NCBI GenBank assembly: GCA_949294395.1
Contig: CASFGU010000061.1
Location: 1-64,000 of the forward strand
Reading direction: 5' to 3'
DNA from: an uncultured bacterium
GTDB taxonomy: Bacteria; Cyanobacteriota; Vampirovibrionia; Gastranaerophilales; Gastranaerophilaceae
DNA: 64,000 nt
Both the position numbers and the translations under genes were made by a program. The notes under the pieces were generated by a model, which worked only from the letters and a program-made list of their open reading frames with translations, did not search any database and had not been told where the DNA came from. Shown one piece after another: positions 1-59,563 of the stretch (position 1 is its first letter; each line of letters starts with the position of its first letter).

Positions 1-51
1 CAAAACAAAGAGATTCTGAACAGCGGCAACTCATGTGAGCCTCAACGATTA

Positions 52-861
52 ATGTTTCAGAATGACATATCAAAAGATGAACCTTTCAACCATTCAACTT
101 TTCACCCGTTCAACTTCGCCGCGGTTCCCTTCCCCCCTCACTCTTCACCCTTCACTTCCAGAAAGGCAGCTTTTACGTTGGCAGAAGTCCTCATTACCCT
201 TGGAATTATCGGTGTGGTCGCAGCTTTGACTATACCGAATGTTACCTCTCATTATCGTAAAAAAGTTGCTGAAACCCGTCTTGCTAAATTTTATACGGTT
301 ATGAATCAGGCAGTTCAGATGTCGGAAAAAGACAACGGGCCGAAAGAATACTGGGAGCAGCTTGGAAATAAAGACCCTGAGGAAAATGCCGAGAAAGGTC
401 AGATTGCTCCGAATATCTGGTTTGAAAAATATTTAAAACCGTATTTAAAATATTCTAGTTTGAAGATAAATGAAGCTTCTGCCAGAGTAATGGTATATTT
501 CCCTGATGGAAGTTTATGTTTAATAAGTGCTGCCAGTTTTCACTTCTGGCCTGAAGCAAAAGATTTTGTTGATTTTGAAAGGGATGAAGAAAGCGGGAAG
601 TATAAAAATCCTAAAGAAATTTCGGGCATAAAGTATTTTACATTTTTCTTTGGTCCATATCTTAGCACTGCTGCGGCTAAACATCACTATAAAAAGGGTG
701 TAGAACCGTATAAATATAACTGGGATGGTACTGTTGAAATGCTTAAGGACGACAGTTCAATCGGGTGCAGGAAGGATGTATCAACAGAGCGGGCTTATTG
801 TACAGCTTTAATCCAGCAAAACGGCTGGAAAATTCCTGATGATTATCCGTTGAAGTTTTAA
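52..861 (+). CDS. Type IV pilin-like protein (pilin A) with repeat-derived leader
   Basis: Prepilin-type protein. A class III signal with KAA|F at about residues 38-41 is followed by the hydrophobic helix FTLAEVLITLGIIGVVAALT, and a soluble C-terminal domain has a Cys pair (CRKDVSTERAYC). After cleavage by the prepilin peptidase it would join a pilus or pseudopilus at the inner membrane. The first 37 residues are translated from a dispersed repeat (heptamer tracts TTCAACC/TTCACCC). The frame stays open to base 1, and there is no Shine-Dalgarno before the ATG used here, so the true start may lie before the window. The mature part is a close paralogue of the pilin at 49.3 kb, identical over about 60 residues. 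No pilin assembly genes adjoin it. Confidence 0.85.
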   Translation: MFQNDISKDEPFNHSTFHPFNFAAVPFPPHSSPFTSRKAAFTLAEVLITLGIIGVVAALTIPNVTSHYRKKVAETRLAKFYTVMNQAVQMSEKDNGPKEYWEQLGNKDPEENAEKGQIAPNIWFEKYLKPYLKYSSLKINEASARVMVYFPDGSLCLISAASFHFWPEAKDFVDFERDEESGKYKNPKEISGIKYFTFFFGPYLSTAAAKHHYKKGVEPYKYNWDGTVEMLKDDSSIGCRKDVSTERAYCTALIQQNGWKIPDDYPLKF

Positions 862-5735: not shown

Positions 5736-5808
5736 AGCGGAAGACGAGACTCGAACTCGCGACATTCTGCTTGGAAGGCAGAAGCTCTACCAACTGAGCT
5801 ACTTCCGC
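5736..5808 (-). tRNA. tRNA-Gly (anticodon TCC)
   Basis: Complete 73-nt cloverleaf on the minus strand: acceptor GCGGAAG/CTTCCGC, D arm AGCTCAGTTGGTAGAGC, anticodon arm TTCTGC-CTTCCAA-GCAGAA with anticodon TCC, and T arm GCGAG-TTCGAGT-CTCGT. CCA is not encoded; the discriminator base is T. A strong terminator follows. The region just 5' of it holds tandem copies of its own 5' half. Confidence 0.95.
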
Positions 5809-6106
5809 AAGGATTTATTTAATTGTGGCGGTTATTTCTCAGTTGGTAGAGCGAATTATGAACTACGTTACGCCTCCGGCTCCACTATGGCAACTGAGCT
5901 ACTTCCGCAAGGATTATTAAATTGCGGCGGTTATCTCTCAGTTGGTAGAGCGAATTATGAACTATGTTACGCCTCCGGCTCCACTGGGCAACTGAGCTAC
6001 TTCCGCAAAGATTATTCAATTGTGGCGGTTATTTCTCAGTTGGTAGAGCGAATTATGAACTACGTTACGCCTCCGGCTCCACTATAGCAACTGAGCTACT
6101 TCCGCA
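5809..6106 (-). repeat. Three tandem ~98-100-bp repeats derived from the tRNA-Gly 5' half
   Basis: Upstream of the tRNA, its first 18 bases (GCGGAAGTAGCTCAGTTG) recur exactly three times (complement at 5891-5908, 5989-6006, 6088-6105). Between them lies a conserved segment with the tRNA-like CTCAGTTGGTAGAGC on the opposite strand (5838-5852, 5937-5951, 6035-6049) and the block CGCCTCCGGCTCCAC. Each unit can fold into a long imperfect hairpin of two opposed tRNA 5' halves. No unit has an anticodon arm plus T arm, so none is a functional tRNA. A long open frame across the array is a by-product of the repeats. Confidence 0.85.
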
Positions 6107-6225
6107 AAGGTTTTTAGATTTTTGTCAGACCTATACGCCTGATACCTATTTACTCTAATATAAAAATAAATTTATTGCAAGTGTTTTTCTCTGGGAATTA
6201 TATACAAGTTTCCACTAAATATGCG

Positions 6226-6470
6226 TAATACTGTCATGCTGAACTTGTTTGACAAAGCGAACCAAAAATTTTGTCATCCTGAATTTATTTCAGGATCTTA
6301 AAATTTTTGAGTGAGCCTGTCCTAACGAAGTGCAGCATCTCTAACTAATGAGACCCTGTCGCCAGGAGCCATTTTGCACGAAAACAAGTTTCGGCAAAAG
6401 AAGGCAAACGAATTCAGAGCCTGCCCTGAATTTATTTCAGGGGTGACAATTTCGATATTGTTTAGTGTAA
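6226..6470. repeat. Dispersed repeat, inverted partner of 4046-4192
   Basis: Carries TCATCCTGAATTTATTTCAGGAT, the TTTGAGTGAGCCTGTCCT segment and GAGACCCTG in the orientation opposite to the copy at 4.1 kb, plus a second CCTGAATTTATTTCAGG hairpin. Noncoding. Confidence 0.7.
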
Positions 6471-12245: not shown

Positions 12246-13229
12246 TTATATTAAAAGCATTATCAATCCCGCTAAAGCAAGCGCCGGCCCGAACGGAAGA
12301 TACGTAAATTCATCAGGATTTTTTAAACCCTGAATAACCTTCCAGCAGGCAAAAATTCCAAGAATACAAAGTACCACTGCCGCAATTACAAGGATTATAA
12401 AATTTTCAATACTGTGTTGTGAAAAATAAAAAATTCCGGCATAAGCAAAGAATGCAATTAATGAAATTAAAACTGAATATTCTTTTTTTATAATCAGTTT
12501 TTTCATAAATACCGGCAGCGTAAATAAAAGTTGAATTCCAACACTGAGTGCAAGAATAATTAAAACATCAATCAATCCGAATACGGCGCCTAAGCCTGCT
12601 GCAATAAATGTATCGCCCTCTCCGAAGGCTCGTGTTCCCGCTATAAGATAACCTGCTCTTGACGCAATTTCCATAATTAATGCTGCTGCAATCATCCCGA
12701 GTACAGAAGATGTAAGCGGATTGTTCAAAAGCCATTCAGGTGTTATGGAAAATCCGAAAAGCGAGTTGTGTGCATTGATTATTTGCAGCACGGTAAGATA
12801 TATTCCATAAACTATTCCGAGTCCGGCAAGAATATATGTGTGCACATCAAATACAACCCGTTCTTTTATATCTGTGACCGACATTACAATCAGCATTGAT
12901 GCAATTGCTGCCGCAAAAAATGCGTCAACTCTTGTTCCGTATTTAAAAAATATTGCAACAAATATTACACCCGTAATGAATTCCACAATCGGGTACTGGA
13001 AACTAATTTTTTCTTTGCAAAACCAGCATTTGCCGCCTAAAAGTAAAAATGAAAGTACCGGTATATTATGCCACCATTTTAATTTGTTGTGGCACTTCGG
13101 ACATTTTGAAGGCGGAAGAACAATGGATTCTCCGCTGAATGCTCTTAATATAACAACATTTAAAAAGCTGCCTATAATTGCTCCAAATGCAAATATAAAC
13201 AGTATAAGTACAATTAATGAAACAGGCAT
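12246..13229 (-). CDS. pilD: Prepilin peptidase (type IV leader peptidase, A24A)
   Basis: Membrane aspartyl protease that cuts prepilin leaders and methylates the new N-terminus; the obvious partner of the three pilin-like genes here. The cytosolic N-terminal domain has the two-CxxC zinc motif (CPKCHNK...CWFCKEK). The catalytic aspartates are in VTDIKERVV and FGEGDTF (GxGD class). About eight hydrophobic helices are present. The ATG with GGGAG upstream was taken as start; a TTG four codons earlier overlaps the sigma factor stop and is the alternative. It is co-transcribed with the sigma factor. Confidence 0.93.
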   Translation of the reverse strand: MPVSLIVLILFIFAFGAIIGSFLNVVILRAFSGESIVLPPSKCPKCHNKLKWWHNIPVLSFLLLGGKCWFCKEKISFQYPIVEFITGVIFVAIFFKYGTRVDAFFAAAIASMLIVMSVTDIKERVVFDVHTYILAGLGIVYGIYLTVLQIINAHNSLFGFSITPEWLLNNPLTSSVLGMIAAALIMEIASRAGYLIAGTRAFGEGDTFIAAGLGAVFGLIDVLIILALSVGIQLLFTLPVFMKKLIIKKEYSVLISLIAFFAYAGIFYFSQHSIENFIILVIAAVVLCILGIFACWKVIQGLKNPDEFTYLPFGPALALAGLIMLLI

Positions 13230-13237
13230 ATTCTCCC

Positions 13238-14017
13238 TCAATTCTCGTTATGTTTTATCATTTCATACATCTTATTTAAAGCTTTTTTAATCCGTCTTGA
13301 AACCTGCATCTGCGACATGTTCATTCTCTCTGATATTTCACGCTGGTTTAAATCTTCATAAAAACTCAGTTCAATAACTTCTTTCAAGTCCGGCGGAAGT
13401 TTTTCTATTGTGCTGGCCAGCATAATTCTGTTTTCGTAAGAGTTCAAAAATTCCTGATAATCTTCCGACGGAATTTTATCTATCAAAAAAGTGTCATCGT
13501 TATCACTTGTTACAGTCTGGTCGAGTGAAACAGTATTTTTGCAAAGTTCAATGTCTGAAACCTCTTTAATCTTTTCAGCAGATAAATTAAGATAGTCCGC
13601 AATCTGTTCTATGGAAGGATCTTCAATCCCCATATTTTTAAGTTTTTTCTTTGCTGAATGAACCTTGAAAAGCAGTTCCTGAATTTCCCGCGGGGTTTTT
13701 ATCAAGGAAGCTTTGTCCCTCAGGTAGTGGCGGATTTCGCCTTTAATAAAATAGGTTGCGTACGTGGTAAATCTGGTGTTCATATCAGGTTTATAAAACT
13801 CAATTGCTTTTACAAGTCCGAGAGAGCCGACCTGTATTAAATCTTCATGTGACACCCCTGACTGCATAGCAATGGATATGGCAATACTTTTTACAAGATC
13901 CATGGATTTTTCAACTATACTCAAATGCAGCATACGCTTTTTCTTTTCGTCAGTGCATTCTTTATAAGAGGATAGCAGAGTATCTATATCTTTATTTTGT
14001 TTTGTTTTACCTTTCAA
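13238..14017 (-). CDS. Sigma-70 family factor, SigF/SigB-like group 3
   Basis: RNA polymerase sigma factor with region 2 (DLIQVGSLGLVKAIEFYKPD, then FTTYATYFIKGEIRHYLRD), region 3 (IEDPSIEQIADYLNLSAEKI) and region 4 (REISERMNMSQMQVSRRIKKAL). It lacks region 1.1 and the long non-conserved region of housekeeping sigmas, so it is a group 3 factor. The start was set at a TTG 7 nt after GGAGA; the longer ATG frame has a non-conserved head and no ribosome site. It is transcribed with pilD. In cyanobacteria SigF controls pilus genes, so the pairing suggests pilus regulation (inference). No anti-sigma gene is adjacent. Confidence 0.9.
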   Translation of the reverse strand: MKGKTKQNKDIDTLLSSYKECTDEKKKRMLHLSIVEKSMDLVKSIAISIAMQSGVSHEDLIQVGSLGLVKAIEFYKPDMNTRFTTYATYFIKGEIRHYLRDKASLIKTPREIQELLFKVHSAKKKLKNMGIEDPSIEQIADYLNLSAEKIKEVSDIELCKNTVSLDQTVTSDNDDTFLIDKIPSEDYQEFLNSYENRIMLASTIEKLPPDLKEVIELSFYEDLNQREISERMNMSQMQVSRRIKKALNKMYEMIKHNEN

Positions 14018-20214: not shown

Positions 20215-21294
20215 TTAGTATTCTACTCCTATACGGTAAGGCGAATATTCAACTTTATCCTCAGTAAGGACTTTTTTAAACAATGAATCTATATTTATTT
20301 TTCCATTACTCTTGAAAGTGTGTGTAAATACATCCGCCCCTTTCTGGTTAGGGCCTTTTTGACCGTTTGAATCTAAATAAAGGTATGCGCAGCCATCAGT
20401 TGTACCGGTTGCTTTTTCAGGCTGTCCATCATCACCTATAACAAAGTTTCCGTTTTCATCTTTTAAATTGTATTCATACTCCCTTATACACTGGCTGTGC
20501 TGTACTATTTTAATAATACTGCCTGTCTTTAATACGATAAAAGGCTGTGTCATATTATCGCCATATCCGGTTTGCCCGTAACCGTTATTAAGTTTTTTGT
20601 TTGAGAGTATCATATATTTCTGGCATACATCTTTTTTATTACCCTGCTCGCAGTAGGTTGCGCCTTCCAGAATCTTGAAAAATTCTCTGTTTACTTCATC
20701 TGTGGTTTTGCTTGTGTCAAACAAGCAGCTAGCATCTGCACAATTGTTTTTTGCCGTATATAATTTAATTCCGTTCATTGTTTCAGAGTAAAGTTTTTTT
20801 GCCTGAGATACAAGAACTTTGTCTTTGTATTTTGCAACTGTGGACGGCAGTGTCATTGCAGCAACAATGCCGATAATACCAAGGGTAATAAGCACTTCCG
20901 CTAAGGTGAAAGCGGCTTTTCTGGAAGTGAAGCGTGAGGGGTGAAGGGTGAAGGGTTCGCTATTGCCCTCTCCCGCCTCCGGCACTACCGTGCCACCTCC
21001 CTTCAGGTTTACCGGTTGAAGGGTTGAAGAGGTTAATGGTTTATACACCCCGAATAATCCAGGACTGGCGGGCAGGGGAGATTTTTTAATAAAAACCCTC
21101 CGGAGCTGCGCACCACCTCTTGCCATTGAATGACCCCTCCTCGAAATCGAAGATTTCGGTCCTCCCTCAAGGGGAGGACAAGAAAAACAGCAGGCCGGAT
21201 TTACAAATCCGAATGGCAGAACTGTTGAAATGTTGAACGGGTGAAAAGTTGAATGGTTGAAGTGTTGAAGGGGTGAAAGGTTAACAATAGACAT
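20215..21294 (-). CDS. Type IV pilin-like protein (pilin B) with long repeat-encoded leader
   Basis: Prepilin-type protein with class III signal KAA|F at residues 126-129, then FTLAEVLITLGIIGIVAAMT and a soluble domain of about 210 residues with several Cys. The first 125 residues are translated from stacked dispersed repeats and would be removed by PilD. The ATG used here has no Shine-Dalgarno. Two better starts exist. One is an ATG at 21508 with AAAGGAGATAAACG upstream, whose frame joins this one only if a G12 tract loses one G or gains two. The other is a GTG at 20985, 10 nt after GGGAGG inside a repeat, giving a normal 25-residue leader. It lies downstream of the yhaM-like/tmk/tmk genes. 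Confidence 0.8.
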   Translation of the reverse strand: MSIVNLSPLQHFNHSTFHPFNISTVLPFGFVNPACCFSCPPLEGGPKSSISRRGHSMARGGAQLRRVFIKKSPLPASPGLFGVYKPLTSSTLQPVNLKGGGTVVPEAGEGNSEPFTLHPSRFTSRKAAFTLAEVLITLGIIGIVAAMTLPSTVAKYKDKVLVSQAKKLYSETMNGIKLYTAKNNCADASCLFDTSKTTDEVNREFFKILEGATYCEQGNKKDVCQKYMILSNKKLNNGYGQTGYGDNMTQPFIVLKTGSIIKIVQHSQCIREYEYNLKDENGNFVIGDDGQPEKATGTTDGCAYLYLDSNGQKGPNQKGADVFTHTFKSNGKINIDSLFKKVLTEDKVEYSPYRIGVEY

Positions 21295-21360
21295 GTCATT
21301 CTGAAACGTTAATTGTTTAGGCGCACATGAATTGTGACTGTTCAGAATCTCTTTGTCATT
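20935..21360. repeat. Stacked dispersed repeats inside the pilin B leader
   Basis: From the prepilin signal outward: heptamer tract (GTGAAGGGTGAAGGG on the + strand), GGCACTACCGTGCC hairpin with GGGAGG, octamer tract, a module with TGGATTATTCGGGGTGT (also at about 59.17 kb), a GGAGGTGGTGCGCAG hairpin, a GGATTTGTAAATCC palindrome, a second octamer tract, and the AGATTCTGAACAG...GTTTCAGAATGACAT module also found at 1-70 and 56.5 kb. All stay open in the pilin frame. Confidence 0.8.
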
Positions 21361-21448
21361 AGCGCCCGCAATGGAAAAAGATTTTAAAAAATCTAAGCGC
21401 TTAATATATTCTAAAAGTGTCCGCCGAAAACCTTTGTTCTGAGCGGAT

Positions 21449-21508
21449 TTATAGGACGCTAAGCCCCCCCCCCCCTGTATGTAATTCAGTCATAGCAAGT
21501 GTTTTCAT
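21449..21508 (-). CDS. Short ORF with G12 tract: probable out-of-frame pilin B start
   Basis: ATG preceded by AAAGGAGATAAACG, reading MKTLAMTELHTGGGGLSVL and then stop. Codons 12-15 are a run of 12 G (21464-21475 on the + strand as C). With 11 or 14 G the frame avoids the stop and runs without interruption into pilin B. With 13 G it stops at once. It begins 24 nt after the second tmk stop, behind an 11-A run (21524-21534). It is best read as the 5' end of pilin B in an OFF state, not as an independent gene. Confidence 0.6.
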   Translation of the reverse strand: MKTLAMTELHTGGGGLSVL

Positions 21509-21532
21509 CGTTTATCTCCTTTCTTTTTTTTT

Positions 21533-24883: not shown

Positions 24884-25215
24884 AGACGCTGGGACGTTAA
24901 GTGCGGCAAAAAAGTGAAGGGTGAGAAGTGATGAGTGATAAAGTTGAACGGGTGAAGGGTTGAAGGGTTGATTGGTTTAACAAAACCCTCCGGCGCTAAC
25001 GCGCCACCTCCCTTACAAAGGGAGGTTTTTGTTACTACCCCCTTTGTAAAGGGGGAATCAAAGGGGGATTTTTTAGTAATACCCTCCGCTGCTGCGTACC
25101 ACCTACTTTCTTCCCTATTTCTCCCGTTCGACTGTGCTGCCCCTCACCCCTCACTCTTTCACCATTTTACCCTTTCATCCTTCACTTTTATCGCACTTAT
25201 CGTCTTTTAATCTTT
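24884..25215. repeat. Mosaic repeat cluster
   Basis: This 390-nt gap holds no gene. It contains GTGAAGG/GTTGAAGGG tracts, an ACCCTCCGGCGC-TAAC-GCGCC hairpin with CTCCCTT, paired CCCCCTTTGTAAAGGGGG palindromes with AATCAAAGGGGG, and a final tract of CCCTCACTCTTTCACC type. Confidence 0.8.
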
Positions 25216-44687: not shown

Positions 44688-44696
44688 ATATAAGAA

Positions 44697-44990
44697 TGTA
44701 GGTCGGATTTACTAATCCGACAGGAAAGTAAAAGACAATAAGACGTTAAGTGCGACAAAAAGTGAATGGTGAAGAGTGAGGCGTGAAGCACGTGACCCTG
44801 TATGCCTTGTACTTTCGCCCTCTCTCTTTGTGAGAGGGCAGAATTTGTTAATTAGCGACAGCTAATTTACAAATTCGGGAGAGGGTACAGGGCCATTAGT
44901 ATTAAATTTCTCAACACGTCGCTCTGCTCCCGCTATCGTTTCGAAAAATAATCCTACTGTTTCTCACCCTTCGCCAGTTCAGCGGTATTC
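44697..44990. repeat. Mosaic repeat cluster
   Basis: In order: GTCGGATTTACTAATCCGAC, a GTGAATGGTGAAGAGTGAGG heptamer tract, CCCTCTCTCTTTGTGAGAGGG, the TTAGCGACAGCTAA module, GGGAGAGGGT, and the AACACG...CCCGCTATCGTTTCG module. No gene. The remaining part to 45172 is AT-rich upstream sequence of the next gene. Confidence 0.8.
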
Positions 44991-49335: not shown

Positions 49336-50103
49336 ATGAATAGGCGGGAAAAGGAAGGAACAGTGCAGAAAATTTTTCAACAAGCTTGTCATAAACCTGC
49401 GTTTACTCTGGCAGAGGTATTGATAACTCTTGGAATTATCGGAGTTGTCGCAGCTTTGACTATCCCGAATGTTACCTCTCACTATCGTAAAAAAGTTGCT
49501 GAAACCCGCCTTGCTAAATTTTATACGGTTATGAATCAGGCAGTTCAGATGTCGGAAAAAGACAACGGGCCAAAAGAATACTGGGAAAAACTCGGGGCAG
49601 GATACGATAAGAATGACGAAGAAACCAAGGAAGAAGATAAAGGGTTAATGCCAGAAGTATGGTTTAATAAATATTTAAAGCCGTATATAAAATATACAAA
49701 TTTAAAGATAAACGGTGTAACTAATAAGGTAATGGTATATTTTGCAGACGGAAGTTTATGTGTTCTTGGTGGCGGAAGCTTCCAATTCTGGCCTGAGGCA
49801 GGAAATTTTGTGGATTACAGGTTTGATGAAGATAGTGCTGCTTTTAAAAATAATGCGGAGATTTCGGGCATAAAGTATTTTACATTCCATTTTAATCCAT
49901 ATACGGATTCAGAGGATAATAAGTATCATTATAAAAAAGGGGTGGAGCCGTATAAAAACCACTGGGACGGAACAGTTGAGATGTTAAAAGAAAGTAGTTC
50001 AATCGGGTGCAGGAAAGAAGTATCAAACGAAAGAGCATACTGTGCAGCTTTAATCCAGCAAAACGGTTGGAAAATTCCTGACGATTACCCGCTGAAATTC
50101 TAA
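49336..50103 (+). CDS. Type IV pilin-like protein (pilin C)
   Basis: Prepilin-type protein with an ordinary 22-residue leader (MNRREKEGTVQKIF..., cut KPA|F) followed by FTLAEVLITLGIIGVVAALT. The mature part matches pilin A almost exactly for the first 60 residues and in the C-terminal Cys-loop region (CRKEVSNERAYC, then ALIQQNGWKIPDDYPLKF), but differs in the central, probably surface-exposed part. Unlike pilins A and B it carries no repeat in the leader. GAGG lies upstream of the ATG; a TTG three codons earlier is an alternative. Probably controlled by the divergent XRE protein. Confidence 0.9.
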   Translation: MNRREKEGTVQKIFQQACHKPAFTLAEVLITLGIIGVVAALTIPNVTSHYRKKVAETRLAKFYTVMNQAVQMSEKDNGPKEYWEKLGAGYDKNDEETKEEDKGLMPEVWFNKYLKPYIKYTNLKINGVTNKVMVYFADGSLCVLGGGSFQFWPEAGNFVDYRFDEDSAAFKNNAEISGIKYFTFHFNPYTDSEDNKYHYKKGVEPYKNHWDGTVEMLKESSSIGCRKEVSNERAYCAALIQQNGWKIPDDYPLKF

Positions 50104-50194: not shown

Positions 50195-50250
50195 AAATTC
50201 CAGAGGATACCGTTCACCGTTCACCGTTCACTGTTCACTGTTCACTGTTG
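50195..50250. repeat. Heptamer tandem repeat
   Basis: Five consecutive 7-mers GTTCACC/GTTCACT (about 50214-50248) between pilin C and the convergent ATPase gene. The preceding segment (50130-50190) resembles the sequence after pilin A, showing that the downstream flank was duplicated with the gene. Confidence 0.75.
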
Positions 50251-53907: not shown

Positions 53908-54490
53908 GTGCAACAATAAGTGAAGGGTGAAGAGTGAGGAGTGAAGCGTTCACTATTTCCCTATCCCTACTTGCGAGGGGGCGGTAAAGTTTAACGGGTG
54001 AATAGTTGAAGGGTTGAAAGGTTGAAGGGTGAGAGGTGAAGAGTTAAAAATAAACCATTAAACCCTTCCTCCATTCACCCGTTAAACTTTACCGCCCTTT
54101 TTAAGGGAGGTGGCGCGAATGCGCCGGAGGGTTTTGTTGAACCAATCCACCCTTCAACCTGAATGGAGGTGGTGCGAATGCGCCGGAGAGTATTAATAAA
54201 AAATCCCCCCTGCCCCCCCTTTTATCAAAGGGGGTAATGCCAAAGCCCTCCCTTGTAAGGGAGGTGGCGCGAATGCGCCGGAGGGTTTACCCTCACCCGA
54301 ATATGTAAATTCGCAGCCGCTCATTAACAAATTCTGCCCTCTCACAAAGAGAGAGGGTAATAGAAGAACTGTTGTGTCGGATTAGTACATCCGACCTGCT
54401 TTTTATAAACCCTTCAACTATTCACCCGTTAAACATTTCAACTTTGTCGCCCCCTTCACTCCTCACCCTTCACTATTTTGCTGCACTCAA
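53905..54490. repeat. Largest mosaic repeat cluster, with SD-ATG hairpins
   Basis: The whole 700-nt gap is built from modules: GTGAAGG and TTGAAGGG tracts, CCATTCACCCGTTAAAC, three GGAGGTGGCGCGAATGCGCC-type hairpins, CCCCCTTTTATCAAAGGGGG, GAGAGGG pairs and GTCGGATTAGTACATCCGAC. Each of the three hairpins has GGAGG 7-8 nt before an ATG (54119, 54178, 54273), opening frames of 25, 19 and 11 codons that all begin MRRRV. No conserved gene is seen; the last 110 nt are an AT-rich promoter region for the next gene. Confidence 0.82.
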
Positions 54491-56419: not shown

Positions 56420-56815
56420 ATGTCAGTCGGGCATACCAGCCCGACAAAGTTGAACGGGTGAAAAGTTGAAGGGTTTATAATTAAATATGTCATTCTGAAA
56501 CGTCAATCGTTGCAGCTCACATGAGATATGACTGTTCAGAATCTCTTTTAGTAACAGTAGTATTAGTTTTCGAAACGATAGCGGGAGCAGCGCGGGAGCG
56601 TGTTGAGAAAATTAATACTACTGTTACTGAAGAGAAGCAAAATTTTGTCGGATTAGTAAATCCGACCTGCATTACCAGCCAGTTGAATGGTTGAATGGGT
56701 GAAAGGAGTAAAATTTTGTCTACATTACTCTTTATCTAATGATAAGCCATTAAACCATTCAACTGTTCACCCGTTCAACTTTATTGCCCCCTCACCCTTT
56801 TTTAGCGTCTTAACG
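56420..56815. repeat. Mosaic repeat cluster
   Basis: GTCGGGCATACCAGCCCGAC palindrome, GTTGAACGGGTGAAAAG tract, the CATTCTGAAACG...CTGTTCAGAATCT module (as at 1-70 and 21.3 kb), the CGAAACGATAGCGGGAGCAG module, GTCGGATTAGTAAATCCGAC, and TTCAACTGTTCACCC tracts. No gene. The 90 nt before the aminotransferase are AT-rich. Confidence 0.8.
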
Positions 56816-58924: not shown

Positions 58925-59563
58925 TTATATTGAAGGGGTGAAGGGGGCTACAAAGTTGAAATGTTGAATGGGTGAACGGGTGAATGGTTTGACATTAGAT
59001 ATGTCAATCAGAAGCGTTAATAGTTGACGCTTGTATGAGGAGGTCGGATTTACTAATCCGACAGAATATCTATCAAGAGCAGTACCAAAAACCTCCCTTT
59101 GTAAGGGAGGTGGTGCGCAGCACCGGAGGGTATTAATAAAAAAAATCCCCCTTTGATTCCCCCTGTCTTGGATTATTCGGGGTGTCCGAAAGCTCAACGT
59201 TTCCGGACACCTTACGGGCTAACGCCCTACCGAAAATCCGCTTTAAAAAAGGGGGTTAGAATAATTACCTCCCTTGTAAGGGAGGTGGCACGATATTGCC
59301 GGAGGGTTTAAGCCCGCCCGAATTAGAATATCTATCAAGGAACAGAAGTATTAATTTTCGAAACGATAGCGGGAGCAGGGCGGGAGCGTGTTGAGAAAAT
59401 TAATACTTCTGTTACTGAATAGAAGTAAAATTTTGTCGGATTAGTAAATCCGACCTACACCACTGCCCCCCTTTCTAAGTGAGGTGGCACGGTAGTGCCG
59501 GAGGTTTTGTTAAACAAATCAACCTTTCAACCTTTCAACATTATTGCCCTCACCCTTCACGCC
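58925..59563. repeat. Mosaic repeat cluster with a nested module
   Basis: TTGAAATG/GTGAACGG tracts, GTCGGATTTACTAATCCGAC, a GGAGGTGGTGCGCAGCACC hairpin, CCCCCTTTGATTCCCCC interrupted by about 90 bp (TGGATTATTCGGGGTGT, GGTGTCCG...CGGACACC and GGGCTAACGCCC hairpins), GGAGGTGGCACGATATTGCC, the CGAAACGATAGCGGGAGCAG module, GTCGGATTAGTAAATCCGAC, another GGCACGGTAGTGCC hairpin and TTCAACC tracts. No gene seen. Confidence 0.8.

Follow-up and report, generated by a model that had tools for sequence, protein, structure and literature searches.

The window analysed here, a stretch of 64,000 nucleotides from an uncultured bacterium of the Gastranaerophilaceae, opens with a pilin gene (pilin A) whose leader is derived from a dispersed repeat. 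This locus raises the question of where translation of such a gene begins, and how a repeat can lie in frame in front of a pilin. Frame 1 was free of stop codons from window base 1 to the stop at 859-861, which corresponds to 286 codons. Bases 1-171 translate to QNKEILNSGNSCEPQRLMFQNDISKDEPFNHSTFHPFNFAAVPFPPHSSPFTSRKAA, and mature pilin A (FTLAEV...) follows from base 172. Base 1 is also the end of the contig, so that the assembly breaks within the repeat. In the leader, TRF detected tracts at 80-114 (period 8) and 129-156 (period 14). The features are collected in Table 1.

Table 1. Pilin-related features of the window
Feature	Position	Strand	Basis or remark
Pilin A repeat-derived leader, running open past the contig edge	1..171	+	Stop-free frame 1; genome copies 5' of other pilins
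Dispersed repeat module, ends AGATTCTGAA...TTTCAGAATGACA	9..68	+	Copies elsewhere in the genome; fold not more stable than shuffles
Degenerate 8/16-bp tract, TTCAACC type	80..116	+	TRF
Degenerate 14-bp tract, TTCACCC type	129..156	+	TRF
RKAA, residues -4 to -1 of predicted prepilin cleavage site	160..171	+	RKAA/KKAA/RKSA/RKSG in 41/46 long-leader pilins
Mature pilin A, N_methyl + DUF6613	172..858	+	Pfam PF07963, PF20318
Prepilin peptidase PilD	12246..13241	-	Sole Peptidase_A24 match in the genome; presumed leader-removing enzyme
Mature pilin B	20218..20910	-	
Pilin B repeat-derived leader, 184 open codons from poly-G to cleavage site	20911..21463	-	
Pilin B poly-G tract, 12 G; ATG in frame with pilin B at 11 or 14	21464..21475	-	
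Pilin B ribosome site (GGAG) and ATG (21508-21506)	21506..21519	-	
Pilin C ordinary leader, ATG start, 22 aa, repeat-free	49336..49401	+	
Mature pilin C, DUF6613, pilin A paralogue	49402..50100	+	

A preliminary description of the window had claimed that repeat-derived 5' bases are read in frame into the prepilin signal of pilin A, that pilin B has the same modules in the same frame, and that pilin C has a normal leader. These claims held: positions 1-171 are open, a search of the genome with window 1-600 gave 50 matches, the modules of the pilin A leader recur in the pilin B leader in the same frame, and the leader of pilin C is ordinary. It had also stated that two pilins share a repeat-encoded leader; the sharing was confirmed, and the number was corrected to about 50 genes. 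The 7- or 8-bp tracts that it described are present, as shown by TRF, but a function as a frame switch was not supported, because neither a length series nor switching was seen; a poly-G tract is the likelier switch.

Two codons in the window were considered as the start of pilin A and rejected. The ATG at 52 is internal and in frame, lacks a Shine-Dalgarno match, and is missing in other copies (LMF versus FSF). The TTG at 178-180 within FTLAEV has RBS-like spacing, but its use would lose the conserved cleavage site.

At pilin B, a clear ribosome site and an ATG are followed by ten further codons and 12 G, after which the frame of the ATG reaches a stop. A start of this form, RBS-ATG-about 10 codons-G(9-16), was found at pilin B and 20 other pilins, and 44 poly-G start modules were counted in the genome. 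Most of those with enough 3' sequence are followed by exactly one long open frame, which leads into a pilin, while a few are degenerate or lead to other proteins. A single-base change in tract length shifts the ATG into or out of the pilin frame. Poly-G starts were also observed 5' of GT17, RgpF and DUF4422 genes (L165, L127, L181 and L218). Genes of these types are surface-glycan genes typical of phase variation.

For pilin A, the extension of the contig 5' of base 1 proposed in the preliminary description led to contig C49. Read outward, C49 ends with 133 nt exactly matching the start of the window's contig (C61), and also matching C39 and C13. It carries RBS-ATG-G11, then 198 open codons into pilin A across the overlap; its ATG would be in frame with pilin A at 10 or 13 G, against 11 in the assembly. 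A 141-nt end, an assembly node, is common to C61 and C39 (at the start) and C13 (at the end), and the true partner of C49 among the three is unresolved. C49 may possibly hold the start of pilin A, to which a poly-G tract is assigned only through this overlap.

A search of the 2.11-Mb genome for prepilin genes gave 129 hits, two of which were weak, or about 127 genes, and the number of prepilin hits in a close relative (G008) was similar. Sorted by their 5' regions, 65 genes had ordinary short leaders, 21 had poly-G in or just 5' of the frame, 27 had a frame that stayed open as far as a contig edge and 11 were of other kinds, with 3 left unclassified. Repeat-built leaders are present on about 50 pilin genes, nearly half. 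Leader length after poly-G was 80-200 codons in 16 of the 19 complete loci, and the longest leader, at a contig edge, has at least 271 codons. RKAA, KKAA, RKSA or RKSG precedes FTLAEVLITLGIIG in 41 of 46 long-leader pilins, and class III signal criteria (basic leader end, Ala/Gly at -1, F(+1)TLAE(+5), hydrophobic stretch) were satisfied. Interruptions occur at a small number of repeat-type loci (C24:11772, L157, L167), and at a small number of others, on C14, the start is unclear or of another kind.

The comparison of leaders across the pilin genes of the genome, which the preliminary description had also proposed, gave 46 long leaders that could be traced to poly-G or to a contig edge, all of them stop-free. 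In the pilin frame, no stop was found in 5,376 codons, against 268 and 332 stops in the other two frames. The count was restricted to these 46 leaders; a test on all 50 would be partly circular. The leaders are mutually homologous and do not represent 46 independent trials. We considered whether a stop-poor repeat could be open by chance, and rejected this: the matches to the leader part lie partly 5' of pilins (93-94% identical over 1-236) and partly at non-pilin places, and the non-pilin copies meet a stop in the same frame after 5-107 codons. The openness of the leader frames is far from chance, with the reservation just given on their mutual homology.

Substitution rates at codon positions 1, 2 and 3 were 0.096, 0.099 and 0.112 in the leaders, against 0.126, 0.010 and 0.532 in the first 24 mature-pilin codons of the same genes. 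The leaders thus lack amino-acid constraint, and the mature pilins are under strong constraint. The only uniform leader residues are the last ones before the cleavage site. From sequence alone, it is likely that selection preserves the frame of the leader rather than its amino acids, and that leaders are translated. Gap counts from local alignments of the diverged leaders were too noisy for a frame test. The leader modules common to different genes share one orientation almost throughout (94,972 versus 144 nt) and mostly one frame. This favours the copying of blocks from one pilin gene to another, or strong filtering for tolerated sequence, over repeated random insertion.

Leaders of orthologues in the closest relative kept the frame and differed in module content and length. 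In one pair the leaders measured at least 163 and 88 aa with 97.6% identity of the mature parts; in another, 191 and 106 aa with 89% identity. Leader turnover between these orthologues is fast. The expectation of the preliminary description that length changes of the leader are tolerated held as far as sequence can tell. It had stated that its reading would be refuted by a ribosome site and start immediately before KAAFTLAEV, or by frameshifts throughout the leaders of relatives; the former was not met in the bounded repeat-led genes, and the latter was not met since orthologues keep the frame.

Translation of repeat leaders was also supported by pilins with ordinary starts. L017 and its orthologue L239 in G008 have a conserved GGAGG and ATG AGA AAA AAC AAA without poly-G, followed in both by 112-codon leaders made of different repeats, while their mature parts are 89% identical. 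L314 has GGAGG and ATG, then a 215-codon repeat leader.

Alternatively, the leader could be untranslated 5' RNA, and translation could begin near the cleavage site, at a hidden or unconventional start. No strong direct evidence speaks for this, though some leaders carry AAGGGAGGTGGCACGGTA-GTG, an RBS-like sequence with GTG, 25-60 codons upstream. Against it, TPHSSPFTSRKAA contains no ATG, GTG or TTG, no common RBS and start lies near the site in repeat-led genes, and the stop-free frame over 5,376 codons would be left without reason. No ATG with a Shine-Dalgarno sequence was found near the cleavage site in the repeat-led genes bounded by poly-G or a contig edge. We regard this explanation as the least probable of those considered. 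Regulation by an RNA hairpin of the repeat module was rejected as well, because in the one module tested (window 5-80) the fold was not more stable than shuffles (z -0.05).

The architecture, the open frames, the RBS/ATG starts and the differing G counts at identical flanks are shown by the assembled sequences. The explanation that we consider likely, inferred without reads, transcripts or peptides, is that these genes encode phase-variable prepilins with a repeat-tolerant leader presumably removed by PilD. Pilin A would belong to a large prepilin set in which translation begins at an ATG just 5' of poly-G. The length of the tract would set the frame, and the gene would be ON only at certain G counts (10 or 13 for C49, 11 or 14 for pilin B). 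The leader, between poly-G and the prepilin peptidase site, is expected to be cut off by PilD. With its amino acids irrelevant, dispersed intergenic repeats would gather there and be retained only where the frame stays open; leader lengths from tens to over 270 aa would result, and pili could be switched gene by gene. Leader translation, PilD cleavage and reversible switching in a population are inferred and not shown.

We then compared tract lengths. At the assembled G count, the ATG was out of frame in 72 of 83 poly-G pilins and in frame in 11, which is below the random expectation of 1/3 (P 2.7e-5 if independent). Counts were near-constant per genome (11 in G011, 10 in G018). The deficit and the near-constant counts argue against simple random switching, which would spread more. 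Unequal counts were, in turn, found in the assemblies at identical flanks: 11 in L152 and 12 in L159, 11 in L143 and 12 in L145, 9, 11 and 12 in G077, 12 and 10 in G048, and 11 in G105 versus 9 in G122. This argues for a mutable tract and does not exclude transcription or translation slippage. These comparisons are between paralogues and between species, not among reads of one population, and poly-G lengths from short-read assembly may be off by one.

Slippage could also be fixed, with RNA polymerase or the ribosome slipping one base on poly-G and many off-by-one pilins expressed at a low level. The 72 out-of-frame pilins, the near-constant counts and the common direction of the offset speak for it. 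However, the direction varies by genus (G011 needs -1/+2, G018 needs +1/-2), counts are unequal at identical flanks, 11 pilins are in frame, and glycosyltransferases carry the same device. We consider it unlikely, and hold the same doubt about its bolder form, in which poly-G is a genome-wide programmed slippage signal, dozens of pilins are held one base off and co-expressed weakly, and the leader is a frame-only spacer.

A third possibility is that the repeat-led pilins are mostly untranslated silent donors, like pilS of Neisseria, which feed expressed pilins by recombination via the shared 5' repeats. Paralogues reach 93-94% DNA identity over the leader and pilin start with differing C-terminal parts, the shared modules lie almost entirely in one orientation, and pilins on C33 and C63 are alike in the first mature part and then diverge. 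As in Neisseria pilE/pilS, many related pilin copies have a common 5' sequence. Copies of pilS lack the 5' end. Unlike silent cassettes, which have neither a start nor a ribosome site of their own, every complete locus here is a complete gene with its own RBS, ATG and a continuous frame save for the poly-G phase, and the mature region is under strong purifying selection. This makes the donor reading very improbable.

The presumed phase-variable prepilins resemble known contingency genes in several respects. Neisseria pilC1/pilC2 and other poly-G contingency genes have an intragenic G9+ tract whose length change moves the frame (PMC5953494), and for the Campylobacter phasome the published numbers are 18-39 in C. 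jejuni and as many as 81 in one isolate (PMC6321876). In common with these, the tracts here are G9+, intragenic and near the 5' end, concern surface structures and glycosyltransferases, and occupy tens of loci per genome. Here, by contrast, it is the pilin subunits themselves that carry the tract, inside their prepilin leader, and a genome has tens of such paralogues. The proteins have the class III signal of type IV prepilins, with basic residues, Ala/Gly at -1, Phe at +1 and Glu at +5. Published type IV prepilin leaders have 6-51 residues (PMC6916266); those here are repeat-built and exceed that range, which describes known cases and is not a strict requirement.

Like Rickettsia palindromic elements, which are dispersed between genes and in frame within ORFs (Ogata et al., cited in PMC10969869), the repeats here are both intergenic and in frame. 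The Rickettsia elements code for a conserved peptide and are inserted in numerous unrelated genes, whereas here strings of several modules occupy one disposable region of one gene family. Neither a stable palindromic fold (one module) nor a conserved peptide (flat codon-position rates) was found. In the literature searched, we found no report of phase variation in Gastranaerophilales.

The poly-G start module was found in 64 of 146 genomes of the family, with a maximum of 89 in one (G063), and no sampled genome outside the family had more than one poly-G start tract. In G011, of the same genus, poly-G pilins mostly have short, repeat-free leaders, which suggests that the repeats filled the leader secondarily. 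A genome from another genus, G013, has other dispersed repeats at the leader position. Judged from these genomes without a tree, the poly-G device is likely older than the repeats, which would have filled the leader at least twice. We counted the presence of other repeats at this position in G013, the PilD gene in the window and the poly-G starts of glycan genes in favour of phase-variable prepilins. If this reading is true, a family of non-photosynthetic gut relatives of cyanobacteria holds one of the larger known poly-G phase-variable repertoires (as many as 89 candidate starts within some 2 Mb), which targets pilin subunits themselves. The leaders would then be a clean example of frame-only selection, in which removal of the product leaves repeats free to enter genes, and for many of these pilins the true start would escape annotation.

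Several minor observations were made. Ordinary MKKG pilins lie about 200 nt 3' of a poly-G module at C20:26052, C48:24455 and C50:53309 (L142, L162, L013), where the module hits a stop after 9-33 codons; these are possibly pilins with a changed start. Further copies of the leader modules, not in leaders, are present in the window at 6330-6417, 24914-25104, 44695-44959, 53917-54473, 56447-56797 and 58934-59537. A heptamer array (ACCGTTC, 5.9 copies, 97% match) is located at 50209-50249, just 3' of pilin C. At 5736-6120, tRNA-Gly(TCC) precedes a tandem array (98-bp unit, about 3.3 copies) in which pieces of the tRNA ends recur.
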